Below, piece after piece: positions 8,129 through 64,000 of a stretch of DNA of 64,000 nt; the first letter of the stretch is position 1; each line of letters begins with the position of its first letter. A model generated the notes under the pieces. The model was not told where the DNA came from, made no database searches, and saw only the letters and a program-made list of their open reading frames with translations. The position numbers were made by a program, and so were the translations under genes. Location: contig CANFKC010000008.1 in NCBI GenBank assembly GCA_947447265.1, positions 1 through 64,000 on the forward strand. Reading direction: 5' to 3'. The DNA comes from Chitinophagaceae bacterium. GTDB lineage: Bacteria; Bacteroidota; Bacteroidia; Chitinophagales; Chitinophagaceae.

Positions 8129-9871
8129 TTACTCCACCCGATAAACCGGGTAGCGCAAATAAACAGGTTCAAAATACGGGGAGTGCTTGTACACATAATC
8201 GAGTTGGGCGAAAGCATTGTGCGCGAATGCCGTATCTGAACTTTTCTTTTCTTCCAGACTGCGCCTGAGTTGGGCATCATTCCTTAACATTTCAGCAGCC
8301 TTATCTTCAAAAACATAATCGCTGAAACCTTCTTTTTGCTGCAATATGCCGTCGAAGAAATTCCAGGCGAAAAACGCATCTGGTGCAGTAGGTTCCAGGG
8401 TTTCAATCAGGTACCTTTTTGCTGGTTGGTTCAGCATAATCAGGAAATCACCTTTCTTAAATTTGATAACGTTTACGTCTGTGGTTACTTTAACGCTATA
8501 GTGCAGATAGTGCTTTTCGTAGGGGTGTTTGCTTGTTTCATAATTTTCAATGTGGTAGGCAGTTACACTTATGGTCGTGTCGCGGGGTAGTGGCTTCATG
8601 TCAACATTATTCCGCTTCAGCCTGCTTATAACCGCATTCCAGGCTCGTGGAATAATATATGCGGTCGGGGCCTTTACTGATTGCGTGGGTTTGTAGTCGC
8701 TATAGAAAGGTACGTCGCAGGTGTAAGGCTTGGCATGATCGTAAAACAAACGCGGCAAGCCCGAAACCTCACTGGGTTTATGCGTTGATGCATAGCCGTG
8801 AAACGAAACCATATCATGCTTTGACGAATCTACTTTCCAGTCCAGCGGAAATTCTTTTTTGCTTTGCAGCGCCAGCCTGTCAGCGGCACGCACCTGGTTA
8901 ATGGTTTCTGCATTTTTGCTCACCTCTTTCACAAGGCATTTCATCAGGTCTAGCGTAGCGATAACCCTGTCCTGATAGGGTTTCAGCATATGGGTTTCTG
9001 CGACGAAACCAATTGCCTGGAACAATGCCATGTAACCGGTCGCAAAGCGCGGCGGCTCATTAAAAGCGGTCCAGCCGTTTTCTGGTGTGTTGTCAAAGTT
9101 GTTTACGTAGGGCACCATATCGTAGCCCATTTTCTTCATGTCTTTAAAAAGCGAAGGGGTTAACGTATTGTGCATAAAGTCGCCCGTTTTGCCACCCAGT
9201 TTATTGTGTTGGGTTTCAATGAGCGTCATCAGGTGCTGGTAGTCCGCGCCATCGCTCACGTGGTTATCAATAAATACAGCAGGGTCGAGTGCCATAAAAA
9301 GTTGCTGCATGGTTTTGGTCTCATTGGCATCACACTTAATAAAGTCGCGGTTCAGGTCAAGGTTCTGTCCGTTGCCTCGGAAGCCATAGCTTTCAGGCCC
9401 GTTTTGTGTGGCTCGGCTAAAGCTGTTGCGGTTGAGTATACCGCCAATATTGTAGGCGGGTATTATGGCGAGCACTATGTTTTCCGGTATGGCAATTTTA
9501 CCCTGTGCTGCATCCCTGGCCAGAAGCATACTGGCATCAACGCCGTCGGGTTCTCCTGCATGAATACCATTGTTAATCAGTATAACTATTTTTCCCTCTT
9601 TTTGCCAGTGGGTTTTATTAAAGTCCCCATCGGTTGAAAAGTAGACTACGTTCACCGGGTATCCGCCATCGGCATTGCCCGCTTTTTCCATTTGTAAAGT
9701 GGTATAGCGTACATCAAGCTTTTTATAAAAGTCAATAGCCTGCTTCAGAGTGGCTGTCTTTTTGCCGCCCGATGTTTCGAAAGGGGTGGTAAGATCATCA
9801 TTTTTTTCTTGCGCGTAAGTAGGCGACAAAGTAAAAGACAGCAGTAAAAGCGGCAGCCAGCGTTTGTTCAT
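8129..9871 (-). CDS. M14 family zinc carboxypeptidase, exported
   Basis: A 580-residue protein with signal peptide (about 1-20). The zinc site of the M14 family is visible: HAGE with H104 and E107, and a third ligand H204 in IDNHVSDGADYQH, with the substrate-binding NLDLNRDF (R175) between them. A late GFVAETHMLK segment fits the catalytic glutamate region. The ~250 C-terminal residues form an accessory region typical of large periplasmic Bacteroidota M14 peptidases. It likely trims peptides or peptidoglycan-derived substrates in the envelope. A degenerate copy of its first codons lies at 11675-11721. Confidence 0.88.
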   Translation of the reverse strand: MNKRWLPLLLLSFTLSPTYAQEKNDDLTTPFETSGGKKTATLKQAIDFYKKLDVRYTTLQMEKAGNADGGYPVNVVYFSTDGDFNKTHWQKEGKIVILINNGIHAGEPDGVDASMLLARDAAQGKIAIPENIVLAIIPAYNIGGILNRNSFSRATQNGPESYGFRGNGQNLDLNRDFIKCDANETKTMQQLFMALDPAVFIDNHVSDGADYQHLMTLIETQHNKLGGKTGDFMHNTLTPSLFKDMKKMGYDMVPYVNNFDNTPENGWTAFNEPPRFATGYMALFQAIGFVAETHMLKPYQDRVIATLDLMKCLVKEVSKNAETINQVRAADRLALQSKKEFPLDWKVDSSKHDMVSFHGYASTHKPSEVSGLPRLFYDHAKPYTCDVPFYSDYKPTQSVKAPTAYIIPRAWNAVISRLKRNNVDMKPLPRDTTISVTAYHIENYETSKHPYEKHYLHYSVKVTTDVNVIKFKKGDFLIMLNQPAKRYLIETLEPTAPDAFFAWNFFDGILQQKEGFSDYVFEDKAAEMLRNDAQLRRSLEEKKSSDTAFAHNAFAQLDYVYKHSPYFEPVYLRYPVYRVE

Positions 9872-9964
9872 GTTGCAGTTTTATGAAACGCAATGATACA
9901 ATTTTTTTAGACTATGACTCGCTTGACTAATTCATAGCCATGATTGGAGGGCTGTAATAAGATG

Positions 9965-10858
9965 CTACAGTAAAGTCAACATTAGTTTTTGCCCGGAGCC
10001 GTCTCGAAATATAGCATAAAGAATGTATAATCCAGGAGTGTAACAACCAAGGTGCAGCCGAGCATTTTTTCCACTCACTTCCTGTGAAAATACTTGTTCA
10101 CCCAGCATACTTAGCATCTTGATTTCCACAATTTCGGATCCCGACTCTACGGTAAATTCACCATAATTGGGATTTGGAAATACTTTGATACTTGGATCCG
10201 TGGCTATATTATCAAACTCGTCTGGAAGGGATTTTGAACATTTAGAACAAGTTGTGTCTATGGTATACATCCACATATCTCCGTCCATGCCCCAAACCGA
10301 TGAAAAATTATCGATTCCTCCAAAAAACCAAAGATGCCCCTTTTTATCAGTAAAAGGCACCGCACCGCTTCTTACTGCAGGAGTGTTAGCCGCCGCAGGA
10401 ACGCCTTTTATGCCATAAATACTCGTATCCCTGGCGAAGGTATCATTGTCTACCCAAACCCAAATGTCATTTTTTATGTCGTAATACACTAAATCGTTCA
10501 GGCAAAAAGCACTGGAAGTATTTGTATATCCACCCATCAACCAAAGATTGTCACAGGCATCTATCCAGCATGCTCTCGCCTCGGCACGCTCATATGGCCT
10601 TAATATTGAAGATCGGACACATTCCACGCTTTGGTAATTTTTAGGATGGGGTGTTGTATCACGATTTACCCAGGTCCACATATTTGTTATTACGCTGTAA
10701 CGCCATAAAGTTGCGTTCGATCCTTTTAGATACCATAGATTTCCTTTACTATCAACCCACCGTGTAGTCAAGCACAGAATGCCCGGGAGTGTTGGCGCTG
10801 TCAGGTAAACCTTTAGTACCATATACTGCCGGCGGAGTAAAGGTAGTCGTGTCGCCAC
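9965..10858 (-). CDS. kelch-like T9SS protein, C-terminal part (separated by frameshift)
   Basis: This frame continues the protein that begins at 11579. Genuine homology starts near codon W of WVDSKGNLWYL, about position 10763; the residues before it (from 10858) are out-of-frame translation. It holds kelch-like units of the form W-x-D-x-x-x-NLW-L/Y followed by W-x-W-V, and ends in a T9SS type A sorting domain (from FPNPNYGEFTVES to LMLTLL). On its own it has no signal peptide and would not be exported. Removing one G from the acggtggg run near 10762 would fuse it to the N-terminal part. Confidence 0.6.
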   Translation of the reverse strand: MATRLPLLRRQYMVLKVYLTAPTLPGILCLTTRWVDSKGNLWYLKGSNATLWRYSVITNMWTWVNRDTTPHPKNYQSVECVRSSILRPYERAEARACWIDACDNLWLMGGYTNTSSAFCLNDLVYYDIKNDIWVWVDNDTFARDTSIYGIKGVPAAANTPAVRSGAVPFTDKKGHLWFFGGIDNFSSVWGMDGDMWMYTIDTTCSKCSKSLPDEFDNIATDPSIKVFPNPNYGEFTVESGSEIVEIKMLSMLGEQVFSQEVSGKNARLHLGCYTPGLYILYAIFRDGSGQKLMLTLL

Positions 10859-11579
10859 TCATCCATGTCCAGTTATTTGTTGCAATTTTATACCGCCACA
10901 TACAACCTTTATTGTCAAGCAACCAAAGGTTATTTGTTTTGTCTGTCCAGCACACTCCAATCTCAATGTTTGCAGGTGGTTTATTGGCAGTATCTTCCAC
11001 ATACTTTGTGCCATAATGGTAGGTGGTAGCGAAACTGGTATCTCCTTTCAGCCAGGTCCAGACATTAGCTGCAATGTAATATTTCCATAAATCAGAATAG
11101 CCAAAAGTTGCTGTACCGGTATCGTAGTATCCTAAGCCACCGTACAGCCAAAGACTACCAGTTTTATCAGCCCATGAATAACAGACGGCTCTTTCACCAG
11201 GAGTATTGTTTGTGTCTGGCACTGTTCTAGTCCCGTATACAGGCTTTTGTTCTAATTTATTATGGCCGTTTATCCAGGTCCATGTATTTGAGTTTGGGCT
11301 AAATTTCCATAAGTCGCTTCCAATTTTTTGCGAAAATTCTCCACCATATAACCAAAAATTCCCGTACGCGTCTGTCCACTCAACTGCTTCATAGGCACTG
11401 GGTGGCATGTTGGTTGTGTCCGGTAGCCCCCTAACACCATAGTTTCCGATAAAGTCCAGTGTGTCGCTTCCCTTCATAAAAGTCCACTGTCCTGGAACTT
11501 GCGCGCGGGATAGCATGCAGGAAAAAAATGCAGCGACCAAAAGGCCAAAGAATTTATGAAAGGAGTGTGTTGGGAACAT
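10752..11579 (-). CDS. kelch-like T9SS protein, N-terminal part (ends at frameshift)
   Basis: Starts with a signal peptide (about 1-26, ending SRAQ), followed by four kelch-like units of about 55-65 residues, each with YG-x-x-x-x-PD-x-x-N-x-P, W-x-D-x-x-x-x-x-W and W-x-W. The frame ends in the middle of the fifth unit (GHSVLDYTVG then stop). Aligned to its own unit GERAVCYSWADKTG, the expected reading GHSVLDYTWVDSKG is restored by removing one base, so this is a +1 frameshift. The whole product would be about 537 residues, secreted and surface-attached. Either a recent pseudogene or an assembly error. Confidence 0.65.
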   Translation of the reverse strand: MFPTHSFHKFFGLLVAAFFSCMLSRAQVPGQWTFMKGSDTLDFIGNYGVRGLPDTTNMPPSAYEAVEWTDAYGNFWLYGGEFSQKIGSDLWKFSPNSNTWTWINGHNKLEQKPVYGTRTVPDTNNTPGERAVCYSWADKTGSLWLYGGLGYYDTGTATFGYSDLWKYYIAANVWTWLKGDTSFATTYHYGTKYVEDTANKPPANIEIGVCWTDKTNNLWLLDNKGCMWRYKIATNNWTWMSGDTTTFTPPAVYGTKGLPDSANTPGHSVLDYTVG

Positions 11580-11674
11580 AAAAGGCTTTAGGCGAATATA
11601 CTAGAATTCAATTTGTGTTTTACAAATAGTCAGCAACTCCGAATGAGCTAGAAACAGTATGTTATTGAAAAGGT

Positions 11675-11721
11675 CAGTAAAAGCAGCAGCCGGCGTTTGT
11701 TGACGTTGCAGTTTTATGAAA
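11675..11721. repeat. decayed direct copy of the M14 peptidase gene start
   Basis: These 47 bases match 9842-9888 at 43 positions by eye. That segment covers the first codons of the M14 peptidase gene and its upstream leader. Here the start codon complement cat has become gac, so the copy cannot initiate. The two copies are in direct orientation and bracket the kelch-like gene. The rest of the 335-base gap 11580-11914 shows no convincing gene. Confidence 0.7.
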
Positions 11722-11901
11722 TGTAATTTTTCGGAATGGTATTTTTTCCGAAAAAGAAGAAATAGATAAACCCATCTAACGCGTTGGCCAAATCTTAACT
11801 TTTGCGGGTGCCGCGAAATATTCCCCTGTTGTGGCAATTAAATGGGCGTTAAACCCCCGTTAAACTCATATCGCTTAAATTTATTACCTTGGGTGCTTCT
11901 A

Positions 11902-11909
11902 TATATTTG
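11902..11909 (+). promoter_or_regulatory. putative -7 element TATATTTG of the histidine kinase gene
   Basis: An exact match to the Bacteroidota -7 word TAnnTTTG, only 5 bases before the ATG at 11915. A start point 5-7 bases downstream would give an almost leaderless mRNA. No clear -33 TTG is visible. Confidence 0.4.
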
Positions 11910-11914
11910 CATTA

Positions 11915-13198
11915 ATGAAAAGAATATTTCCTGTAATTGTAGTGTTGATCTCCCTGTCGGTGATAGGTATTTTGTTCATACAAATGTCCTGGATCTATAA
12001 TCAGATACAGCTGAAGCACGACGAATTTGAGAGGGGAGTGGAAAATTCATTGAACCAGATAAGGGTTTCAGTGCAGGGTACATTTATGTACAAAATGGGC
12101 GTTGTCACCGCCAATGATGAGTCGCGCGACAAATATCTCAAGGACAATTTTACGCTCCTTAATGGTTTTTCTAACGATGAGGTAGGGGAGATAATTAATA
12201 AAAATCTGAAGCAGAACAACGTAAAATATCCTTTTGAATTTTGCGTAGTGAATATTTTTAACAACATTATTTATCAGAGTGAAGGTTTCCAGGTAACCGA
12301 AATGAATATGGATCACACGGTGCAGCTTTCACCCAAGGGTTCAACGCGGTCAAAGGAAACATTGTACATAGCCATTCATGAGAACCGCAACCAGGTGATA
12401 GGCGAAATGTGGTGGATGATCGCTGCCTCTATTGTATTTACCTGCATCATTATCATGGCCTTTTTTGTTACGGTGCGCACACTCTTTAACCAGAAAAAAC
12501 TTTCTGAAATAAAGTCTGACTTCATCAACAACATGACGCATGAACTGAAGACACCACTTGCTACTATTTCATTGGCTATTGATGCGCTCACTAATGAAAA
12601 AGTAATTCATGATGCCGATAAAGTAAAGCTGTATAGCAGCATGATAAAGGAAGAGAACAAGCGTATGAATAAGCAGGTAGAAAAAATACTGCAGGCAGCG
12701 CGTCTTGAAAAAGAAGAAATAAAACTCAACCTTACTGAAATTGATGCCCACCAGGCCATTAATAAAGTTGCCGATAACCTCTCGCTGCAAATGCAGGAAA
12801 AAGGCGGCACATTGCAGCTGCGGCTTAATGCGCACGACCATACTATACAGGCCGATGATGTGCACTTTTCCAACATTATATTTAACCTGCTCGATAATGC
12901 TTTAAAGTACTCTGATAAGGCTCCTTACATTGAAGTAGAGACCATGAACAGCCATGCCGGCACCTTCGCCATAAAAATAAAAGACAATGGCATTGGCATG
13001 GATAAAGAGACGCAGTCGCGCATATTTGAGCGCTTCTTCCGGGCACATACCGGCAATCTGCATAATGTAAAAGGCTTTGGTCTTGGCCTTAGTTATGTGA
13101 AGGCCATTGTAGAGGCTCACGAGGGCAAAATAAAGGTGGAAAGCGTACCGGGCAAGGGCAGTACCTTCACGGTTACTTTTCCGCTGAAAGAAGCGTAG
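11915..13198 (+). CDS. membrane sensor histidine kinase (orphan)
   Basis: A 427-residue protein: TM1 (about 7-25), a periplasmic sensing region of ~140 residues without a recognised fold, TM2 (about 167-190), then HisKA with the H-box MTHELKTPL (His209) and a HATPase domain with N-box NLLDNALKYS, G1 box DNGIGMD and G2 box GFGLGLSYVKA. It autophosphorylates on His209 and passes phosphate to a response regulator. None is encoded next to it in this window, which is unusual for this Bacteroidota class of kinases, normally found in kinase-regulator pairs. Confidence 0.92.
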   Translation: MKRIFPVIVVLISLSVIGILFIQMSWIYNQIQLKHDEFERGVENSLNQIRVSVQGTFMYKMGVVTANDESRDKYLKDNFTLLNGFSNDEVGEIINKNLKQNNVKYPFEFCVVNIFNNIIYQSEGFQVTEMNMDHTVQLSPKGSTRSKETLYIAIHENRNQVIGEMWWMIAASIVFTCIIIMAFFVTVRTLFNQKKLSEIKSDFINNMTHELKTPLATISLAIDALTNEKVIHDADKVKLYSSMIKEENKRMNKQVEKILQAARLEKEEIKLNLTEIDAHQAINKVADNLSLQMQEKGGTLQLRLNAHDHTIQADDVHFSNIIFNLLDNALKYSDKAPYIEVETMNSHAGTFAIKIKDNGIGMDKETQSRIFERFFRAHTGNLHNVKGFGLGLSYVKAIVEAHEGKIKVESVPGKGSTFTVTFPLKEA

Positions 13199-13238
13199 GT
13201 AATGGTGAATGGTGAATGGAGAATGGTAAATGGTGTTG
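13197..13238. repeat. degenerate heptamer array, unit like ggtgaat
   Basis: Immediately after the kinase stop codon, five consecutive 7-base units starting ggt or gga (first two exactly ggtgaat) keep a strict 7-base register with substitutions in later units. It belongs to the family of period-7 spacers described in the findings. Confidence 0.75.
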
Positions 13239-13381
13239 TTGGTGCTCCAGCCGGGGTAAACGCATTAAAATGTATTAGCCCGAAAAGATTTACTTTGATT
13301 GTTTTAATGTGGATGTCAGTTACCCTTACTGGTTTTTCAGCTATCAACCATAAATCGTTACATTAATGCAATTTGCACGCA

Positions 13382-14680
13382 ATGAAACTATATTCAGCCT
13401 TTTTACTTTTTATTTTTTGTGCCTGTTATGGCATAGAAGGCTATGCGCAGCAGCACAATAAAACTTCGCAGTATGTATGGAAGCAACTTGTAGAAAGGAC
13501 CGTCTCTACCCACAATTGGATGGATGCGCAGGGGCAGAGACATGAGGAGCCTTCGTGTGATTCTCAAATGATAAAGTTCTTATTGTCGCCCGTATTAAGT
13601 GGCAAGGTAAAGGCTTATATACGAGGTTGGTTTGAAGACGATACCGACTACGTAAAATTCCGTAAGCCGATAACAAAAGAGGAGTTCCCGCTCATCATCA
13701 ATCCGCCGCCGACTTATGACACCGACATAATTGAAGATGTAACTGGTGAGCTGGATACGCTTGTACATTTGACTGCTATTTACCAACTATATACCGGAAA
13801 TTTAAGCGTTACCGAACAATGGGTATTTGATCCCGTAACCAGGAAAACAGAAGTTACAATACAGTGGCTGACTTTTAGCCTGGTATACCTTGGCGGCAGA
13901 GATAGCGCATATAAAGGGGAGACGCAACTGTTTAAGGTAAAATGGAGCGACTTAAAGGCGACAATACTCCAATGGTCGCAAACGCACAAGCAGCGCAATT
14001 TTCAGAGCTGCTGGTTATCGGCAATCTATGGATATCATGAGTTAAGGCAACCGAATCTCATGGTTGATACACAAGCGAGGCAACCATGCATTGTTTCAGC
14101 GAATACCATTACGCTTAATAACCTGCGATGCATTACCATGCCTGATACCAATCAATATGGTTTTCTTTCGCTCAGGGGGTTGCACAGGGCCAATCTTTGC
14201 TACGATATTTATCGCAATATTAAATCGGGGCAATTGAAGGCTTATGCCGATAGCGGTTTTAGATTTACAAGCGTTCTGTCGCCGACTAACATTGATTTCT
14301 GGCATGACGACGATACTACGCTTGTAGAAGGCCATAAAGGTTTAGATTCAACAGTTATCAGAAAGAAGGAGGTGTACTGGTACAGTCTTATTAACTATTG
14401 GCTCTCTGAACGCATGGTTTTTGACACACAAATGGGCGCATTGACTATAACCATAACCGGGGTCTCCCCTAGGTTTAGCGGAAGTGGGAACATGTTCCTG
14501 AAAAAGACAGATTTTGACATCTTTGATGAACAGCGTTTTCCAAAGCATAAGCAGATACCCTGGGTTCGTTACAAGGATCTGGAGCATAAACTGGCTGAAT
14601 ATGACCAATGGCATGGCGTCGACAACTTTTCATCGGCTATCTGGAAAAGCTATTTTTTACCGGTAAACTATGGAAGGTGA
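13382..14680 (+). CDS. exported protein with two tandem GldN-like modules
   Basis: Start taken at ATG 13382, which opens a clean signal peptide (MKLYSAFLLFIFCACYG, cut near YAQ); a TTG nine bases earlier is less likely. The ~432-residue protein has two related halves. Half one holds LSGKVKAY, VTEQWVFDPVTRKTEVTIQW and FKVKWSDLKATILQW. Half two holds KSGQLKAY, WLSERMVFDTQMGALTITI and WVRYKDLEHKLAEYDQW. Each set follows the order and spacing I associate with GldN/PorN, a ring component of the type IX secretion and gliding machinery. Normal GldN has one such module, so this looks like a fused duplicate or a distinct relative. The function is not established. Confidence 0.6.
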   Translation: MKLYSAFLLFIFCACYGIEGYAQQHNKTSQYVWKQLVERTVSTHNWMDAQGQRHEEPSCDSQMIKFLLSPVLSGKVKAYIRGWFEDDTDYVKFRKPITKEEFPLIINPPPTYDTDIIEDVTGELDTLVHLTAIYQLYTGNLSVTEQWVFDPVTRKTEVTIQWLTFSLVYLGGRDSAYKGETQLFKVKWSDLKATILQWSQTHKQRNFQSCWLSAIYGYHELRQPNLMVDTQARQPCIVSANTITLNNLRCITMPDTNQYGFLSLRGLHRANLCYDIYRNIKSGQLKAYADSGFRFTSVLSPTNIDFWHDDDTTLVEGHKGLDSTVIRKKEVYWYSLINYWLSERMVFDTQMGALTITITGVSPRFSGSGNMFLKKTDFDIFDEQRFPKHKQIPWVRYKDLEHKLAEYDQWHGVDNFSSAIWKSYFLPVNYGR

Positions 14681-14924
14681 TATTGGTTTAAAAATATTAT
14701 TTTCAATATCATGAGCCGAAAACAATGTACCAGGTATTTAAACCTACTCCCTCTGTGCACCAAATTTTTACCGATTGTGTAAGTTCTTACTCCATTTCTC
14801 ACCCTTTCCCCCTGACATAAATATGACATTGCAATAAAAAATATTTTTAGAAACAGCCTGAAAGCCGCGTCAGCACTGAGAAAACTTTTTTAAGAAATGT
14901 GTTTTAAGTTTCAGTATTGTGTTG

Positions 14925-14932
14925 TAGTTTTG
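14925..14932 (+). promoter_or_regulatory. putative -7 element TAGTTTTG of the act operon
   Basis: An exact TAnnTTTG word 64 bases before the chosen start of actA, in the 315-base A+T-rich gap 14681-14995. It is the best candidate for the main respiratory operon promoter; no strong -33 TTG is seen at the ideal distance. Nothing else is recognisable in this gap. Confidence 0.4.
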
Positions 14933-14995
14933 CCTCCGCTTTTATTATATAAAGGAAAGTTAATTTTCAAATTCATACTCGTGCCAGAATCAATA

Positions 14996-16264
14996 ATGCA
15001 ACTGTTTCGTATATGCTCCCGGAGTGCGCTCGCAGTTATTTTTGCTTTGCTCCTGTTAAACACTTCAGCAATTGCCGCCCCTGATGGTAAGGCATTATTC
15101 CAGTCCAATTGTGCGTCCTGCCACAATCCGCTGAAGGATGCAACAGGGCCTGCGCTGCAAAACATAGACAAGACATTCCCGAGCAAGGAATGGGGTTATG
15201 CGTGGATCCATAACTCAGCTGCATTGATCGCTGCAGGCGATAAGACAGCGGTTGACATATTCAACAAGTTCAACAAAACGGCAATGACTGCATTTCCTCA
15301 GTTGAAGAATGATGAAATCGACGCCATCCTGAAATATGTTGATGACTATAAAGCTCCACCAACTGCAGTTGCTGCTGCTCCGGGTGGCAATGATGGTGGT
15401 CAGTCAGAAGGTGGCAGCGGCATGGTGTATACCATCATTACACTTTCTTTACTGGTGTTGGCTGTTATCCTATGGCGCGCTAACCAAACATTGGGCCGCT
15501 CTGCTAACGAGAAAGAAGGTATCCCTAATGCAAAAGAAATTCCACTTTACAGAAACAAGGTTGTAATAGCAATGGTTGCCATCCTGGCATTCATTATGGC
15601 AGGTTACTGGTTAGTAAATGGTGCTATCAACGAAGGTCGCCAGCAGAACTACCAACCACTGCAGCCAATTTACTATTCTCATAAAGTTCACGCAGGTATT
15701 AACCAGATCAACTGTTTATATTGCCACGCTGGTGCTGAAAAGAGTAAACAGGCTATGATACCTTCTACCAACGTATGTATGAACTGCCACAAACAGATCA
15801 ACGAATACACTGGCGATAAAGATCATGCATTGGTTACAGCGGAAGGCAAAACCATTAACGGTACTGACCAGATCAAAATGTTGTATCAGTATGCAGGTTG
15901 GGATCCGGTTGCTAAGAAATACAAATTGGACAAGAACGGTAATATTGACGCTAAGCCAATACAGTGGGTTAAGATCCACAACCTTCCTGACCACGTTTAC
16001 TTCAACCACTCACAGCACGTGAAAGTTGGACAGGTACAATGCCAGCGTTGCCACGGCCAGATACAGGAAATGGACGAAGTTTACCAATTCGCTCCACTTT
16101 CAATGGGTTGGTGCATTAACTGTCACCGTCAGACAAAAGTGCAGTTCGATAACCAGTACTACAGCATCTTCCAGAAATATCATGAAGAAATTAAAGCTGG
16201 CAAACGTGATGGTGTAACTGTTGAAGAAATAGGCGGTACTGAGTGTCAGAAGTGCCATTATTAG
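14996..16264 (+). CDS. actA: alternative complex III multiheme cytochrome c subunit ActA
   Basis: The frame is open from 14897, but ATG 14996 begins a proper signal sequence (MQLFRICSRSALAVIFALLL), giving 422 residues. Six c-type heme sites are visible: CASCH (39-43), CLYCH (240-244), CMNCH (261-265), CQRCH (349-353), CINCH (373-377) and CQKCH (417-421). The last five match the pentaheme ActA core. The first lies in a separate N-terminal cytochrome c-like domain (about 30-120) joined by a Gly/Ser-rich linker and a membrane helix (about 142-160); a second helix lies near 190-208. In alternative complex III, ActA carries electrons from the quinol site to the terminal acceptor on the periplasmic side. 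Confidence 0.93.
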   Translation: MQLFRICSRSALAVIFALLLLNTSAIAAPDGKALFQSNCASCHNPLKDATGPALQNIDKTFPSKEWGYAWIHNSAALIAAGDKTAVDIFNKFNKTAMTAFPQLKNDEIDAILKYVDDYKAPPTAVAAAPGGNDGGQSEGGSGMVYTIITLSLLVLAVILWRANQTLGRSANEKEGIPNAKEIPLYRNKVVIAMVAILAFIMAGYWLVNGAINEGRQQNYQPLQPIYYSHKVHAGINQINCLYCHAGAEKSKQAMIPSTNVCMNCHKQINEYTGDKDHALVTAEGKTINGTDQIKMLYQYAGWDPVAKKYKLDKNGNIDAKPIQWVKIHNLPDHVYFNHSQHVKVGQVQCQRCHGQIQEMDEVYQFAPLSMGWCINCHRQTKVQFDNQYYSIFQKYHEEIKAGKRDGVTVEEIGGTECQKCHY

Positions 16265-29645: not shown

Positions 29646-29653
29646 TATTTTTG
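29646..29653 (+). promoter_or_regulatory. putative -7 element TATTTTTG before the DUF4221-like gene
   Basis: An exact TAnnTTTG word. A start point near 29659 supports translation from ATG 29681 rather than from the ATG at 29660. Confidence 0.4.
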
Positions 29654-29680
29654 TTAGGTATGGATTATTGCATACTGTTT

Positions 29681-30772
29681 ATGAGAATTCTGATTATTTT
29701 ATGTTTGATACTATTAAGCTTTGGCTTAGTTTACAGGTCCCAATTTTCTAAAACTGTCAAGGTTAGATCGCTTTCCATTTCTGAAAATTTGGAGGTTCCA
29801 GTGGAAATAAATGATGAAGATTACCATATTTTTTTTAAGTCAGGAAATGCATTTTACATTTATTCTGACGAAAGAAAGAGCATTTTCAAATATGATCTAA
29901 ATCAACAAAAGGTAGTAGATTCCATTAACATAGGTAGGCTGAATATTGCGTCAAAATTTGACTATTGCCTTAGTGGAAATTCACTATTTACGATGAAAAT
30001 CGATAGGAATTTGATATCAGAATACAGATTTCCTGAATTGCAACATGTTGATGACTATCATTTTGCTGATAGCAGCAATAGTTGTGATTATTCGTACGCC
30101 TCGATATATCTGCCGTTTTCTGTTGATAGAAATAAAATAGTAGTGTTATATCATGTGCCGAATTTATTTATACCCGATCAAACGCAGAGAGAGGCATATT
30201 TTTCGTCGAAAGTTATCGCAGTTAGTAGACTGCATAACTCAAATGCTCAATTGATTTCTGAAACAGGAAATTTCCCTAAGGAGTATATCTCAAAGTTGTA
30301 TAATGAATTTTATCCACACGCCGCAGTTATGTGTGGTGGTGTTGTTGCCAGTCTTTTCAGTAATGAACCTATAATTTATCTTTCAAACGGCATTGAAAAA
30401 AATATTAATGGATTACCAAGAAATAAGCTAAAAGAGATGGATATTGATAGTATTCAGTTTCATAATTACACGTCAGCGTACAACATTAGAGCTGAAAAAT
30501 ACGAGTGGCTCTTATACGATTCCATTGCGAAAAACTTATTTATTTTTCAAAGTCATCCACCTGCTCCAAGGAGTGATGGAAATATCTCCCTTTGGAAAGA
30601 TAAGCTGTTGACGGTTTACATGGTCGATAGCACCTATACCGTTGTCGCTAAAAAAGATATTGATAGAATAGGAACTTATATTTTCCCATCTTTTTTTTGT
30701 TTTAATGCAAAATTATATATGGGGAGATTTGATAGAAACCGACTAAAATTTGAAGTATATGAAGCTAAGTAA
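29681..30772 (+). CDS. membrane-anchored beta-propeller-like protein (DUF4221-like)
   Basis: From ATG 29681 the product is 363 residues with an N-terminal hydrophobic anchor (MRILIILCLILLSFGLVY) and no lipobox cysteine. The rest is a series of beta-strand repeats such as GNAFYIYSDERKSIFKYDLN, KIVVLYHVPNLF and KLLTVYMVDS, reminiscent of six-bladed propeller proteins of the DUF4221/BF3164 type in Bacteroidota. Its 3' end overlaps the next gene by 14 bases, so the two are translationally coupled. The function is unknown. Confidence 0.6.
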   Translation: MRILIILCLILLSFGLVYRSQFSKTVKVRSLSISENLEVPVEINDEDYHIFFKSGNAFYIYSDERKSIFKYDLNQQKVVDSINIGRLNIASKFDYCLSGNSLFTMKIDRNLISEYRFPELQHVDDYHFADSSNSCDYSYASIYLPFSVDRNKIVVLYHVPNLFIPDQTQREAYFSSKVIAVSRLHNSNAQLISETGNFPKEYISKLYNEFYPHAAVMCGGVVASLFSNEPIIYLSNGIEKNINGLPRNKLKEMDIDSIQFHNYTSAYNIRAEKYEWLLYDSIAKNLFIFQSHPPAPRSDGNISLWKDKLLTVYMVDSTYTVVAKKDIDRIGTYIFPSFFCFNAKLYMGRFDRNRLKFEVYEAK

Positions 30773-56057: not shown

Positions 56058-57722
56058 ATGGCAGATACCAATACCCCAAAATCGGGAGCATCTAATTCGG
56101 GAGCGCTATCAACCCTGGTCACGGTTTATTTTTTCTGGGGTTTTATTGCTGCTGGCAACGGTGTATTTATTCCGTTTTGTAAACACTATTTCCAGCTCGA
56201 CCAGTTTCAGTCGCAGCTGATCGATTTCGCTTTTTACCTGGCTTATTACCTGGGTGCACTCGGTTTGTACTTTGCTGCCTCAGTATTTGGTAAAGACCTT
56301 GTGGCTAAGTGGGGTTATCGAAACAGTATTGTATATGGGTTGCTGTTTTCGGCTCTCGGTGCTATTATTATGATATTCGCAGTAAACGCCAACACATTCC
56401 CCGGAATGCTGGCTGGCCTGTTTGCCGTTGCGCTAGGTTTTTCTTTACAGCAAACAGCCGCCAACCCTTTCACCGCATTGCTCGGCTCTCCCGAAACTGG
56501 CGCACACCGTATTACCCTGGGGGGAGGTATCAACTCATTTGGTACTGCCATTGGCCCTATTGTAGTGGCGCTTGCTTTATTTGGCGCAACCAAGAGTAAT
56601 GACACACTGATCAATTCACTCGGGCTGGGCAAGGTTTCCATACTGTATGCAGGTGTAGGTGGTTTATTTATACTGGCTGCGGCGTTGTTCTTCTTTTCCA
56701 AAAAATTGCCATCGGGCAAGTATGAAACAGATACCGAAAAGTCCCCAAAAGCATTGGGTGCACTGCTGGCAATGACCATATTGCTTGTTGCCGTATTTGT
56801 TCCAATCTTTAAGAGTTACACTATCATCACAGAAGATAAGGCCCTGCTGCAAAGCATAGAGATGGACCGTTTTAAATGGTTGCTGTGTGGCCTGGTGGTT
56901 ATTGTAGGTACGCTGCTTATTTCGCTTAATCGCGCTAAGAAAGATGCTACAGGCTGGGGTGCCATGAAGTACCCGCAGCTTATATTGGGTATGCTGGCCA
57001 TATTCACCTATGTGGGTGTGGAAGTAACGATACAAAGTAACCTGGGTGCCTTATTGGAGTTGAAAGAATTCGGTGGCTATGCATCATCGCAGGTTGCACC
57101 ATTCATTTCCATGTACTGGGGTAGCCTTATGATAGGCCGCTGGACGGGCTCAATCAAAGCTTTTGAGCCAACGGAAAGCCTCAAAAATATGTTGCTTTTC
57201 GTTACGCCCATTGTGGCATTCGGGGTGGTTATAGCAGTTAACACAATTGCGCAGAACGATATGGCGCCGCTCTACCAGTATATTGTTTGCGTTGCTGTGC
57301 AGGCCGTTGCATTCTATATGAGTAAAGATAAGCCTGCCCGAACCCTAATGTTGTTTTCGTTGCTGGGTGCCGCTTGCATGGTAGCAGGTATTTTAACAAC
57401 GGGTAAAATTGCCACTTACGCCTTCCTCAGCGGTGGTTTATTCTGTTCAATAATGTGGCCATGTATATTTGCACTGTCTATAGCTGGCCTCGGGAAATTT
57501 ACATCGCAGGGTTCGGCATTTTTAATAATGATGATATTGGGTGGTGCAATTATACCGCCTATACAGGGTAAGCTGGCGGATTTGAAAGCGATAGGTATAC
57601 ATCAATCATACTGGGTGCCGGCAATCGGTTTTGCATACCTGGCGTGGTTTGGTTTTGCAGTGCGCCGTATGTTACAAAAACAAGGAATAGATTATGATGC
57701 AGGAACTGGCTCTGGGCATTGA
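56058..57722 (+). CDS. sugar MFS transporter, FucP/GluP-like
   Basis: A 554-residue, 12-helix major facilitator protein of the fucose/glucose-galactose:proton symporter group. Typical blocks are [26 protein letters not shown] in helix 1 and [40 protein letters not shown] spanning helices 4-5. It is longer than Escherichia coli FucP because of extra sequence around the middle loop. It imports a hexose from the periplasm. The ROK kinase gene overlaps its 3' end by 29 bases, so import and phosphorylation are coupled. Confidence 0.9.
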
Positions 57723-58635
57723 TATTGGCGGTACCAATACCGCTTTCGGAATAGTAAACAGGCGGGGGGCTATTATTGCAAAGGGCAGTGTGCCCACTAC
57801 GGGGCATGCGTCGGTGCAGCACTACATAGCTGCGCTTAAAAGCGCGGTATTACCACTTGCTGAAAAAGAAGGACTGGATCACTTTGCGGGTGCCGGTATC
57901 GGCGCGCCTAATGGAAACTTTTTTACCGGGGAGATTGTGTTCGCACCCAATATGCCCTGGCGCGAGATTATACCGATGGCTAAGCTGGTCAGCGATGCGC
58001 TGGGTATGAAGGCCACGCTCACTAATGATGCCAATGCAGCGGCAGTGGGCGAGATGATGTATGGTGCCGCCAAAGGCATGAAAGATTTTATTGTCGTTAC
58101 GCTGGGTACGGGCCTGGGTAGTGGCTTTGTAGCCAATGGCGATGTAGTCTATGGGCATGACGGGTTTGCCGGTGAACTGGGTCACGTCATAGCTATCCGC
58201 GATGGCCGCAAATGCGGTTGCGGCCGGCTGGGATGCCTGGAAACTTATGCTTCAGCAACGGGTATAGTTCGCTCCGCAGATGAATGGCTGGCAGTAAGAA
58301 ATGAAGATAGTTTATTGCGTAAACACACAGGTAAAATAACGGCTAAAGCCATTCATGATGCAGCTTTGCAGGGCGATGCGCTTGCCCTGGAACTCTTTGC
58401 ATATACCGGTAAAATTTTGGGCCAAACCTTAGCTGATGCCATTGCTATCACTTCGCCCGAGGCTATTATTTTCTTTGGCGGCTTGGCTAATGCAGGCGAC
58501 TTGTTGTTCACACATGTGCAGCATCATATGGAAGAAAACCTGCTCAACATTTACAAGGGTAAGGTGCAGTTATTGCAGTCAGCTTTGCCCGATGCCGATG
58601 CCGCTATTTTAGGGGCGAGCGCGCTGGCGTGGTAG
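57694..58635 (+). CDS. ROK family sugar kinase
   Basis: A 313-residue ROK kinase. The phosphate loop is [15 protein letters not shown], the catalytic Asp is D112 in [10 protein letters not shown], and the zinc site is H164 with C174, C176 and C181 in [13 protein letters not shown]. Such enzymes phosphorylate glucose, mannose or fructose at the cytoplasmic side. The coupled transporter and the nearby GH125 mannosidase make mannose or glucose the likely substrate. Confidence 0.93.
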
Positions 58636-58728
58636 TGGTTTTCAGTTATAAATGATAGTATTGGATAGAGTTGATTACTTTCGCCTTGCTACGCGTTTCA
58701 TTCTTTTTTAATTTTTATCATTTTTTCA

Positions 58729-61700
58729 ATGATGGTATTAACCAAATCATTCGCTGAATCACTTCTGCGGAAGTTAACAATAGGAAATTCCCGTTCTATT
58801 TTGTTGAACGCAATTCCTGGACGACTTTTGACTCGGTTAGCACTAACAGATTTAGATATAATCGGTAAAGGTTTATCCAAACAGTTCATAACAGCACTAA
58901 CCTCACAAAAAAAGTTCAGTTTTAAATTTTCTATAGATCTCAACGAAAAAAGCGACAATGAGCTAAAACAAATAGCTAGAATTGGGAAACGATTGGCCGC
59001 AATAAAGTATGATCATGATGATTATCAGAAAGAGCATGGCGTAGAAACGTTTGGTTTCGGGTTTCCTATTTGGGTACGGAAAAATCCCAGAGATTCAGCA
59101 AAATTCATTGCATCTCCTGTCTTCATATTTCCACTTGATATAAAACAAACATTTGATAAGGAACGAGAATGGATTATTAATAGGTACGATGAATCTGAGA
59201 TCAAGTTAAATGAAGTTTTAGTATCGTATCTTGAAAATGAAGAGCATATAAAAATACCCGCTATTACTGAAGAAATGTTGGAAGATGGCTTGTTGGATAA
59301 AGATGAAATTAACGCATTTTGTCAGAATCTAATATCGATCTTTGAAAAAAATGCCAACCTAACTAATACTTGGGAATCATATGACATACTGCCTGAAAAA
59401 TTAAGCACTACGGATGCTGACTTTAAAAATAACAGCATTATATGGAATGGTGTCTTTGGTTTGTATAAAAGCCAAAAGCAAAGCCAAATCAAAGAAATGG
59501 AGGCATTGTTAGATGATTTTGAGAATATCACCGAAAATAATGAAACAAAGTTTGAATGGGAGCATGTTCACAGTCCAAAGGAAACTGACCCTAGTCAAAA
59601 TGGAGTTTTGCGTTCACTTGATTCAAACAAAAATATTGTTATTGAGGGACCTCCAGGAACTGGTAAAAGCCAAACTTTGACAGCAGTAATTGCCAGTGCA
59701 TTAGCTAACAACAAAAAGATACTTATAGTTTGTGAGAAAAGAACTGCACTTGAAGTATTGAAGGAAAATCTAATAAAATTAATTCCAGAATTGACAAAAT
59801 GTATTGCTCTAATTGAAGATACTTCAAGGGATAGGGGGAATATAGTAGAAACAGTAAGAAACAGGACCGCAACATATTTAGCCGGACGCCATCATTTATC
59901 CTTACTGCATGAAGACATCAAGCGTTTTGAAAGTAAAGCAAGCCTTATTGAAAAACAATATGAAGCATTAAGAACGCCTAAAAAAAAGTGGTGGTCTAAC
60001 CTGGTTTATAAGTGGATTGCTACCAATAAGACAGACGAAGATATCAGCGTATATTTTTCATTACAGAAGGTTTTCGCAGAACAAGGGTTGGACGAAGTAG
60101 GATATAAAGCATTAATAGGAAAAATAGAAGATTGTGCTATTTTGTATGCGCGTTCTGAAAATACATTGGAGCAACTTGAATTGAAATTTAAGCCAATAAT
60201 ATTTGAAGAGAATATTAATGATAGAACTATAATTTTTACATTAAAAGAAACTATTGCAAAATTAAAAAATATTCAAGTCGAACTTAAGGCAGAAGCTAGC
60301 CAGTTTTTGGAAACAGTGAATACTGAGTCTCAAAATAACCTGCGAAACAATAGAACACTTTTAGTAGAGTTGTCTGAAATAGTCAATAAACATCAACCTA
60401 AGAAAATTGATATTTTCAACCCATCCTTTTCAACAAAAATCCTTTCAACTATATTCGCAAAACAAAAGCAAATCATAACAGAATCCGCAAAAGCAAAACA
60501 ACTGTTGCGAAGTATACAATCTTTTTGGAAAGAATATTTTCAAAAAAACATAAGTGCAAACCAGCTAATGGAGTGCACTCAATATATTGATACTAATTGC
60601 GATAATATTGTTAAACTAAGGCAAGCAAAACTGATAAATGAGCCAATTAACAAAATTGGATCGTATGGGTTTAACATGGACGCGTTATCAAAAATATTGG
60701 AAATACTGCAAAAAGCCGATAAAGAGGTGGACAAGTATATTAACAAAAACAATTACTCTGTCCCTCAAGCCTACATCCATGAATATGAAAAAATAATTGC
60801 GGATTTTATTTTTGATTTACAAACAGTTATTGAAAACGACAGCAATATCCGACATTACTTTTCATGGAAATTATTAGAAAAAACACTGCTGCCTATTGAA
60901 AGACAGTGGATTACTTTGCTAAAAGCGTATAATTCAAAGCAGTGGAAAAATATTGTGGAGAATACATGGTTATTTCATAATCTTTTTCATCAAGACCAAA
61001 ATGACAAATTCCCAACTGATGACCAAAGCTTACAAGTGCTTAGGGAACTAGGGTTAAAAATTCAAAAACAACAAAAGGAAGTTATTGCGCACAACTTAAA
61101 TAACTGGTGTGTATCTGGACAAAATAAAATTAAAGCTACCGGTATCCAAATCAATCAGCTTTATAACCTCAGGGGGCCTAAAGGCGGGACAAGAAATTCA
61201 CTAAGGAAAATAATACAAATTAACCCGGATGCTTTTACAGATTTTTTTCCAGTACTGATGCTTAATCCCAGCACCTGTAGTTCTTTGCTACCTTTAAAAA
61301 AAGATTCGTTTGACATTGTAATATTTGACGAAGCAAGCCAATTGAGAATTGAAGATACATATCCTGCCTTAATCAGGGGAAAGCAAGTTATCGTATCAGG
61401 TGATAGCCAGCAAATGCCACCATCTAGTTACTTTGAAAGTTCGAAGCAGATTATTGATGACAATAATGACGATGATGATATTGAAGAGCTTTCTAGCGAG
61501 GAACTCAGCGTTCAATTATTGAATAGTAGTTCAAAAGAAAGTGCATTAACCGAGTCCCTTTTACAGTTTGCAATTGATATTGGTTTTACAAAGACTTATC
61601 TGGATATGCATTATCGCTCCAGGCATCCTAATTTAATCGCTTTCTCAAATGTTTGTTTTTATGGTAGCAGGTTAGTCCCAATGCCCGAAACAATTACATC

Positions 61701-62652
61701 CCCACCAATAAGTTACTTTCATGTAAATGGATTATACGAAAACAGAAAAAATTTAGCAGAAGCAAAGGAAATAGTTAGGTTAATTAAAGATGAAATTGCA
61801 TGTAATTTATCAGTTGGTGTAGCGACATTTAATTTAGAGCAACGCAATCTTATTTTGGAGCTTATTGGGGATGAACGTTCTGCTAACCCTGAATTTCAGA
61901 ACAAAATGAACGAATTTGACAAGAACGGTTTCTTTGTTAAAAACTTAGAAAATGTACAAGGTGATGAACGGGATATTATACTGATAAGTACGACATTTGG
62001 CTCAAAAAGCGATGGGTCTTTTCGTTTATCTTTTGGGCCAATCGGCAATAAAAATAATGGACATCGTCTGCTAAATGTTATCATTACAAGAGCAAAGCAT
62101 AAATTATATATACTAACGTCAATTCCCGAAATAAAAATCTCTTCTTATCGAGAACGACTTACTGTAAACGAAACTGTAGATGGCACTACCGGGCTCCTTG
62201 CATATCTGGCTTTTGCCAAAGCGGTCAGCGAAAATAATGTCGAAGAAACGCAGGCAATACTTAGTTATATAAGTTCTAAAATTGCTAGGGGCCAAAGTGA
62301 AATTCAGGGAGATTATTTAGGTCTTTCAGAATCTCCCTTTGAAGAAGAGGTATATTGTTGGTTAGCTGAAGTAATTGGTACAGACAGGATACAACAACAA
62401 TACCCCTGTGGCGGATTTAGGATTGACATGGTAGTACTTCCCAAAAATGCGAACGGTGCGTTAAAGTTAGCAATAGAGTGTGATGGAGCAGCTTATCACA
62501 GCGATCAACTTTCATGGCATTACGATATGTACAGACAGGAGCAGCTGGAAAAAAATGGCTTCAAATTTCATAGAATATGGTCAACAAATTGGTGGAGAAA
62601 CCCTAAAGACGAGTTGCAAAAATTATTGCGAACAATTGAGGAACTTAATTAA
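58729..62652 (+). CDS. DUF4011-like / SF1 helicase / Vsr-like nuclease protein, candidate antiviral defence gene
   Basis: A 1307-residue multidomain protein, visibly A+T-richer than both neighbours. The N-terminal ~240 residues resemble DUF4011 (LLRKLTIGNSRSILLNAIPG; EHGVETFGFGFPIWV; IASPVFIFPLDI). A split SF1 helicase follows: Walker A GPPGTGKS (307-314), a long charged insertion (about 370-830), Walker B DEAS (867-870), VSGDSQQMPP (889-898), YRSRHP (962-967), VQGDERD (1076-1082) and VIITRAKHKLYI (1117-). The C-terminus is a Vsr/MTES_1575-like nuclease: RIDMVV (D1233), IECDGAAYH (E1250, D1252, H1257) and FHRIWSTNWW. The same order is, from memory, that of the Hhe (DUF4011-helicase-Vsr) defence genes. 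It stands alone, without a modification gene. Confidence 0.85.
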   Translation: MMVLTKSFAESLLRKLTIGNSRSILLNAIPGRLLTRLALTDLDIIGKGLSKQFITALTSQKKFSFKFSIDLNEKSDNELKQIARIGKRLAAIKYDHDDYQKEHGVETFGFGFPIWVRKNPRDSAKFIASPVFIFPLDIKQTFDKEREWIINRYDESEIKLNEVLVSYLENEEHIKIPAITEEMLEDGLLDKDEINAFCQNLISIFEKNANLTNTWESYDILPEKLSTTDADFKNNSIIWNGVFGLYKSQKQSQIKEMEALLDDFENITENNETKFEWEHVHSPKETDPSQNGVLRSLDSNKNIVIEGPPGTGKSQTLTAVIASALANNKKILIVCEKRTALEVLKENLIKLIPELTKCIALIEDTSRDRGNIVETVRNRTATYLAGRHHLSLLHEDIKRFESKASLIEKQYEALRTPKKKWWSNLVYKWIATNKTDEDISVYFSLQKVFAEQGLDEVGYKALIGKIEDCAILYARSENTLEQLELKFKPIIFEENINDRTIIFTLKETIAKLKNIQVELKAEASQFLETVNTESQNNLRNNRTLLVELSEIVNKHQPKKIDIFNPSFSTKILSTIFAKQKQIITESAKAKQLLRSIQSFWKEYFQKNISANQLMECTQYIDTNCDNIVKLRQAKLINEPINKIGSYGFNMDALSKILEILQKADKEVDKYINKNNYSVPQAYIHEYEKIIADFIFDLQTVIENDSNIRHYFSWKLLEKTLLPIERQWITLLKAYNSKQWKNIVENTWLFHNLFHQDQNDKFPTDDQSLQVLRELGLKIQKQQKEVIAHNLNNWCVSGQNKIKATGIQINQLYNLRGPKGGTRNSLRKIIQINPDAFTDFFPVLMLNPSTCSSLLPLKKDSFDIVIFDEASQLRIEDTYPALIRGKQVIVSGDSQQMPPSSYFESSKQIIDDNNDDDDIEELSSEELSVQLLNSSSKESALTESLLQFAIDIGFTKTYLDMHYRSRHPNLIAFSNVCFYGSRLVPMPETITSPPISYFHVNGLYENRKNLAEAKEIVRLIKDEIACNLSVGVATFNLEQRNLILELIGDERSANPEFQNKMNEFDKNGFFVKNLENVQGDERDIILISTTFGSKSDGSFRLSFGPIGNKNNGHRLLNVIITRAKHKLYILTSIPEIKISSYRERLTVNETVDGTTGLLAYLAFAKAVSENNVEETQAILSYISSKIARGQSEIQGDYLGLSESPFEEEVYCWLAEVIGTDRIQQQYPCGGFRIDMVVLPKNANGALKLAIECDGAAYHSDQLSWHYDMYRQEQLEKNGFKFHRIWSTNWWRNPKDELQKLLRTIEELN

Positions 62653-62696
62653 CGCTTTGCAACATTCTTTGTTTTTGTGTTTCACTTTCAAAGCAC

Positions 62697-64000
62697 TTAC
62701 ATCAACAAATGCTTCCTCTCCCTATACACCTTCCATACAAATTCGCCAAAGAGTGTGTTAGCCCATGCAAACCATGGCCGGCTGTATTTTGTGGCGTCAT
62801 TTTTATGGAAAGACTCGTGCATAAATCCGGTTCCGGCATGGCTCTTTTGTAACATTTCGAGGCATAACGCAATCTCTTTATCGTCAGTGCTCGTAAGGCC
62901 GCGCATAATTATGCTTATGGGCCATATCATGTCAGCGCCTACGTGTGGTCCGCCTATGCCTTCTCCCGCGCTGCCTTTAAAAAAGAACGGATTGTTTTCT
63001 GAAAGCACAAATGCGCGCGTATTCAGGTATACTTCATCATCCTTCATTTTGGGCATAAGGTAGGGTAGCGCAAGCAGTGAAGGAACATTGGCATCGTCCA
63101 TCAGGTTGCTGCTGCCGAAACCATTTATTTCGTAAGCATAAATGTTGCCGAATTTCGGGTGTTTCACTTTTGCCTCCCGCAATCCCTGATTTACTTCGTC
63201 TATCAGCTGGTAAACGGGTTTGGTATTAAAATCAACCTTGAGTTCAAAAATAATATCCAGCATCTGGAAAAGGGAGGCAACAGCAAACATATTGCTGGCC
63301 ACCAGGTAAGGATATACCGTGGCGTCGTCGCTCGGTCGGAACATAGAACAGATCATGCCATTGGGTTTGGCCGGGTAGCCAAAGCCATTCATGGGTATGC
63401 TGTCGGTGGCGTACTTGCTGCTGCGCATAAAACTATAAGGCCCTTTATCGTGCCAGCGCTGCTGTTCTATAAAAGTCTTCACAACCAGCCTCATTGCAGC
63501 CAACCATTCGTCATCAAAAGCGCTGGTATCGCCCGTTTCTTTCCAGTAACCATGTGCAAGGCGAATAGGGTAGCAAAGGCTGTCAATTTCCCATTTACGC
63601 TCATGCAGGCCCGGTTTCATGGCGGTTTCGTCATTGTGCCATTCGCTTATTTTGCTTTCGTCTTTGTAAAAAGCGTTCGCGTAAGGGTCTTTTAAAATGC
63701 AATGGGTCTGGCGTTTTATCACGCCTTTTACCAGGTCTTTAAGGTATACGTCATCATTGCACAACCGCAGGTATGGCCATACCTGTGCCGAAGAGTCGCG
63801 CAGCCACATGGCATCAATATCGCCGGTTATCACGTAAGTATCCACTTTGCCGTGATTGTAGGTATGGTCAACCGTTGTATCCAGCGTATTCGGGAAGCAG
63901 TTTTCGAACATCCAGGCAATTTCTTTGTTGCCTATGCTTTGGCGTACTTCCCGTATCAGTTTTTCAACAGCTACCGAATGGAACTTTCTTTCACTCCGCG
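62697..64000 (-). CDS. GH125 family exo-alpha-1,6-mannosidase (partial, runs off right edge)
   Basis: The frame stays open to the window edge, and the codons before 63911 encode family sequence (VEKLIREVRQSIGNKEIAWMFENCF), so the true start lies outside. It has the GH125 blocks FPNTLDTTVDHT, TYVITGDIDAMWLRDSSAQVWPYL, HERKWEIDSLCYPIRLAHGYW, GFGSSNLMDDANVPSLL and TGFMHESFHKNDATKYSRPWFAWAN. The Asp in GDIDAMWLRDS and the Glu in HESFHKND fit the catalytic residues known for the family. It releases alpha-1,6-linked mannose and complements the GH92 enzyme. It converges on the helicase-nuclease gene with a 44-base gap. Confidence 0.93.
   Translation of the reverse strand, partial: RSERKFHSVAVEKLIREVRQSIGNKEIAWMFENCFPNTLDTTVDHTYNHGKVDTYVITGDIDAMWLRDSSAQVWPYLRLCNDDVYLKDLVKGVIKRQTHCILKDPYANAFYKDESKISEWHNDETAMKPGLHERKWEIDSLCYPIRLAHGYWKETGDTSAFDDEWLAAMRLVVKTFIEQQRWHDKGPYSFMRSSKYATDSIPMNGFGYPAKPNGMICSMFRPSDDATVYPYLVASNMFAVASLFQMLDIIFELKVDFNTKPVYQLIDEVNQGLREAKVKHPKFGNIYAYEINGFGSSNLMDDANVPSLLALPYLMPKMKDDEVYLNTRAFVLSENNPFFFKGSAGEGIGGPHVGADMIWPISIIMRGLTSTDDKEIALCLEMLQKSHAGTGFMHESFHKNDATKYSRPWFAWANTLFGEFVWKVYRERKHLLM

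Follow-up and report, generated by a model that had tools for sequence, protein, structure and literature searches.

Hhe (NF042953; PADLOC PDLC02194) is a named anti-phage family in which a DUF4011 domain, a split SF1 helicase and an MTES_1575 nuclease follow each other in a single protein; its NCBI-annotated member from a Klebsiella plasmid (WP_064824465.1) has 1893 aa. The same domain order is found in ProA (NF058533) and in the PADLOC candidate PDC-S37 (PDLC05009), and our search of the open literature for papers on DUF4011, PDC-S37 or ProA as anti-phage genes returned nothing useful. The MTES_1575-type giant proteins bring together HEPN, transglutaminase, SF1 helicase, Vsr nuclease and wHTH/DUF3320 parts (PMC3710099). 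Hachiman (PMC12278908) and Hna (PMC13381803) are defence precedents in which a helicase and a nuclease are combined and the nuclease is restrained until a trigger arrives.

The window (the whole stretch of 64,000 nucleotides analysed here) contains a single gene of this kind at 58729-62652, recognised by ORF reading, Pfam, PADLOC and NCBIfam. It is a plus-strand ORF of 1307 codons with an ATG start and zero internal stops, in agreement with the 1307-residue protein of a preliminary description of this DNA. Re-reading the motifs on the translation returned exactly the coordinates given there: GPPGTGKS at residues 307-314, DEAS at 867-870, and D1233, E1250, D1252 and H1257 in the nuclease. All ATPase motifs and nuclease acidic residues are intact. 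As judged from sequence and structure models, the protein is composed of a divergent DUF4011-type N-terminus, a Upf1/IGHMBP2-like SF1B helicase and a C-terminal MTES_1575 nuclease; Pfam, read up to an E-value of 1, reports neither HEPN nor transglutaminase nor DUF3320/wHTH parts in it.

The N-terminal domain (residues 1-267; 58729-59529, plus strand) is the only one with a Pfam match under the cut-off, DUF4011 scoring 19.6 bits against 22.2. The earlier assignment of a DUF4011-like N-terminus stands because of the relatives: four of the five close homologs scanned pass the cut-off, the fifth (L097) reaching 21.8 bits, and hhalign gives 99.3% probability for the match between a profile built from 39 N-terminal regions and the DUF4011 region of the NCBI-annotated Hhe. 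AlphaFold2 models were built in two pieces, and the N-terminal 290 residues gave a confident alpha/beta model (pLDDT 85.7, pTM 0.82). Comparison of this model with solved structures (PDB) yielded no convincing fold match (best E 0.04), and a profile search of solved structures was empty too; a fold identity for this domain was rejected, however confident the model.

The split SF1 helicase was recovered by Pfam (AAA_12, 3e-13; AAA_11, 9e-12). On the plus strand, the first part of its RecA-like 1A domain occupies 59530-59889, with the Walker A motif at 59647-59670, and the rest of the Upf1-like core (residues 804-1137) occupies 61138-62139, including DEAS (61327-61338), VSGDSQQ and VQGDERD. The model of residues 268-1307 (pLDDT 79.8, pTM 0.69) has fold matches to Aquarius-type spliceosome chains, Upf1, Sen1/Setx, Dna2 and IGHMBP2. 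A profile search of the core agrees with the fold, the nearest families being IGHMBP2, Upf1, Sen1 and Dna2. Helicase motifs and predicted fold both point to the Upf1/IGHMBP2-like SF1B family.

Between motifs I and II, the helicase is split by ~416 residues (about 388-803; 59890-61137, plus strand), modelled by AlphaFold2 as all helical with low-confidence patches. The long insertion noticed in the preliminary description is present, but this protein is not alone in having it: homologs mostly carry about 350-840 residues at the same place, with one longer outlier, and the stretch is therefore a family trait rather than an insertion in the window protein. A unique sensor insertion was rejected on these grounds, and this hypervariable arm contains no recognisable sensor domain. 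It is by far the fastest-diverging part of the protein, with 31% identity to the ortholog of a congener (G007) and 1 invariant column out of 416, as against 67-75% identity to the same ortholog in the later helicase part and the nuclease. Such divergence may come from either positive selection or weak constraint, which are indistinguishable at these sequence distances.

The C-terminal nuclease (residues 1204-1307; 62338-62649, plus strand) is of the Vsr/MTES_1575 type as first described, with a Pfam MTES_1575 match over residues 1204-1303 (E = 8e-27). In six clade relatives (L094, L104, L116, L117, L127 and L128), the nuclease active site is degenerate while the helicase motifs are kept. Nuclease action is therefore not shared by every clade member. 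This points to the motor as the core function, with cleavage perhaps provided by other means in the degenerate-nuclease relatives.

An alignment-based scan of genome contigs yielded relatives where a single-protein query had given none. Full-length relatives come from one congener (G007, 52% identity), from across Bacteroidota and, in one case, from Ignavibacteriota; within the genus, 2 of 11 genomes carry this clade's gene. The helicase-core tree, a quick search drawn with midpoint rooting and containing some long branches, places 25 relatives and the window protein on one side of a branch (SH-aLRT 99), and the window protein pairs with that of G007 (SH-aLRT 100). By these sequence comparisons, the protein falls outside Hhe and ProA, in a distinct clade made up mostly of Bacteroidota proteins, an undescribed subfamily within a known superfamily. 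No near relative was found on a phage or viral contig, where one phage record and 43 viral loci gave distant superfamily matches only. Another congener carries a more distant superfamily member of 1724 aa (L106; G004:C11, about 760-765 kb), located on the other side of the tree and with altered nuclease residues.

The preliminary description had recognised the domain order of Hhe, which Pfam and an alignment to the annotated Hhe bear out, and it had suggested a comparison with the Hhe model of PADLOC. That model was indeed matched (3e-81), but PDC-S37 is the better one (1e-149, 499 bits), the two being compared by E-value rather than by the cut-offs that PADLOC sets for score and coverage. Among NCBIfam anti-phage models, ProA (7e-145) scores 485 bits against an equivalog cut-off of 1500, and Hhe (4e-111) scores 373 bits against 2000. 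Four clade relatives are similarly low on these curated models, whereas homologs placed opposite this clade in the tree reach 1392-2296 bits on ProA (1638 and 2296 being over the cut-off). Identity as Hhe thus falls: the curated cut-off and the tree, in which the clade lies well apart from the ProA/Hhe-like side, rule out filing the protein there, and with 1307 instead of 1893 aa it should not, on present comparisons, be called Hhe.

The gene sits in a sugar locus, as previously noted. An MFS transporter and a ROK-family sugar kinase (57694-58635, plus strand; Pfam ROK, 4e-60) lie upstream, and a convergent GH125 alpha-mannosidase (62697-63998, minus strand; Pfam GH125, 5e-160) lies downstream and runs off the window. 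Comparison with congeners defines the inserted segment from the ROK stop codon to the GH125 stop codon (58636-62696). The A+T-rich composition from which horizontal insertion had been proposed is real (GC 0.346, GC3 0.293; z = -3.0 and -2.8 relative to the 37 other window ORFs, whose mean GC is 0.443). Two congeners (G005 and G006) have ROK and GH125 adjacent, with near-empty gaps of ~136 and ~28 nt. The G007 ortholog is found at another site, where it follows a gene identified by eye as SprT-like and present in 10 of the 11 genomes of the genus, and this ortholog is A+T-rich too (GC 0.363 within a 0.49-0.54 setting). The low GC, the empty sites and the ortholog placed elsewhere mark the gene as a recent arrival, horizontally acquired.

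The same gap is filled with other sequence in G004 (~807 nt), G010 (~750 nt) and G003 (~2851 nt), and every other filled gap examined holds cargo different from the window gene. G004 (L060) has a 146-aa ORF there, G010 (L063) a GIY-YIG nuclease ORF, and G003 (L059) a 606-aa secreted-type ORF (T9SS-type repeat protein) together with a duplicated piece of GH125; in G009 (L065), a 303-aa ORF lies on the 3′ side of ROK. Neither integrase, transposase nor terminal repeats were found at 58636-62696, and a mobile-element signature was accordingly rejected for this insertion. Elsewhere in the window, a second A+T-rich ORF (29651-30772; GC 0.328, 373 aa) has only a sub-threshold olfactomedin-like match.

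Defence genes are found beside relatives of the window gene. At E ≤ 1e-10, PADLOC matches among the 87 neighbours of 24 clade members include type IV restriction, Zorya II, MADS (mad6), PD-T4-6, Shedu and MkoA, matches being pooled in this table and a model assigned to a particular locus only for Zorya (L097). At the same threshold, none of the 41 window proteins matched, a control made of one locus only, and hence no defence gene was found beside the window gene within the window. No partner gene or modification enzyme was seen at the window locus, the search across clade members gave no conserved neighbour, and no phage assay turned up for any of them.

Part of the clade carries a GreA/GreB C-terminal domain (PF01272, best 7e-12) behind the MTES_1575 nuclease. 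It makes up the C-terminal 70-80 residues and passes the cut-off in L097, L098, L113, L115 and L122, falling below it in L118 and L123; the window protein has no such domain. In L097, the Gre-tailed relative (9098-13519) is followed by ZorA2, ZorB2 and ZorE2 (13520-16127), in what appears to be a four-gene Zorya II variant. The TAA stop of the relative directly precedes the ATG of ZorA2, an arrangement of translational coupling; no second Zorya-coupled operon was found in the 92 genomes searched from the family of G146. Since the Gre-type domain has an RNA-polymerase-binding fold and one such relative sits in a Zorya II operon, the clade could be a Bacteroidota defence family not described so far, in which the helicase-nuclease would recognise phage DNA that is being transcribed or is under torsional stress. 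Such a family might connect transcription and DNA translocation with membrane-motor defence, the window member being a reduced form without Gre. We regard this extended proposal as improbable. The more surprising lead of this work lies in the relatives that are fused to Gre or coupled to Zorya.

We propose that the window gene, acquired horizontally, encodes an anti-phage protein that works as a single-gene system and belongs to the DUF4011/SF1B helicase/MTES_1575-nuclease superfamily, with a probability of roughly 0.7. Phage defence had been put forward as a candidate role from the start, and it is the most likely function, supported indirectly by homology to named anti-phage families, by horizontal transfer and by the defence genes beside relatives. 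Weighing against it are scores far under the cut-offs of the curated anti-phage models, the lack of another defence gene next to it in the window and the degenerate nuclease of six clade relatives. The Upf1-like motor would load on nucleic acid that is single-stranded or abnormal in another way, probably intermediates of phage replication or transcription, and translocate using ATP, bringing the C-terminal nuclease onto the strand being exposed. Gating of loading or of nuclease release would fall to the DUF4011 domain and the variable helical arm, sparing host DNA until infection. Helicase-restrained nucleases such as Hachiman and Hna would be the mechanistic precedent.

Part of the same evidence could be read differently. 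The gene might belong to a multi-gene defence system, its partner missing or encoded elsewhere in the genome, and be inactive alone; the relative coupled to ZorA2-ZorB2-ZorE2 and the degenerate nucleases of some others are compatible with this. However, the lack of a conserved neighbour across clade members argues against an obligate partner, as does the fact that both congeneric copies stand alone, and we find a multi-gene system unlikely. Slightly less likely still is that the gene serves not defence but DNA or RNA repair or nucleic-acid quality control, as an enzyme resembling Dna2, IGHMBP2 or Vsr. Some Vsr-type nucleases are repair enzymes, and the fold and profile matches to Dna2, Upf1 and Sen1 would fit such a role. 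A patchy distribution over the genus, foreign composition and insertion at different sites are nonetheless not what this role predicts, and two further helicase ORFs of ~650 aa, separate from this gene and weakly matching, are present in its genome.

That different congeners hold different cargo in the ROK-GH125 gap, in one case the GIY-YIG nuclease ORF, could also indicate a selfish or mobility-related helicase-nuclease spreading between intergenic sites. The window site shows no terminal repeats, integrase or transposase, phage and viral contigs hold no near relative, and homology points instead to anti-phage families; we give this explanation very little credence. A single-gene anti-phage protein is the reading that we retain.

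At 1307 aa, this putative defence protein is small enough for convenient work on structure and mechanism. Because the long helicase split is a family-wide, fast-evolving helical arm, discrimination between phage and host nucleic acid is directly testable by arm swaps.

How does it compare with described systems? Relative to the annotated Hhe, the window protein lacks ~590 residues, both its N-terminal part and its insert being shorter; the two are 33% identical over residues 769-1306 and 27% identical in the N-terminal region. ProA and PDC-S37 are the best-scoring named models, and the other-side homologs that score highly on ProA have ~200 extra C-terminal residues, whereas the window protein ends at its nuclease. 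With the MTES_1575-type giant proteins it shares the core of SF1 helicase and Vsr-type nuclease but not, according to Pfam, their HEPN, transglutaminase and DUF3320/wHTH parts. MkoA and MkoC of Mokosh have a similar Upf1-like helicase core (3e-31 and 4e-26); the best matching stretch is the helicase part only (848-1136), with no match reported over the MTES_1575 nuclease. The helicase and nuclease families of Hachiman and Hna differ from those of the window protein, and these systems are analogues rather than homologs, from which a mechanism may be drawn by analogy. Taken together, the window protein extends the Hhe/ProA-type single-gene helicase-nuclease defences by a branch that is compact and separate.
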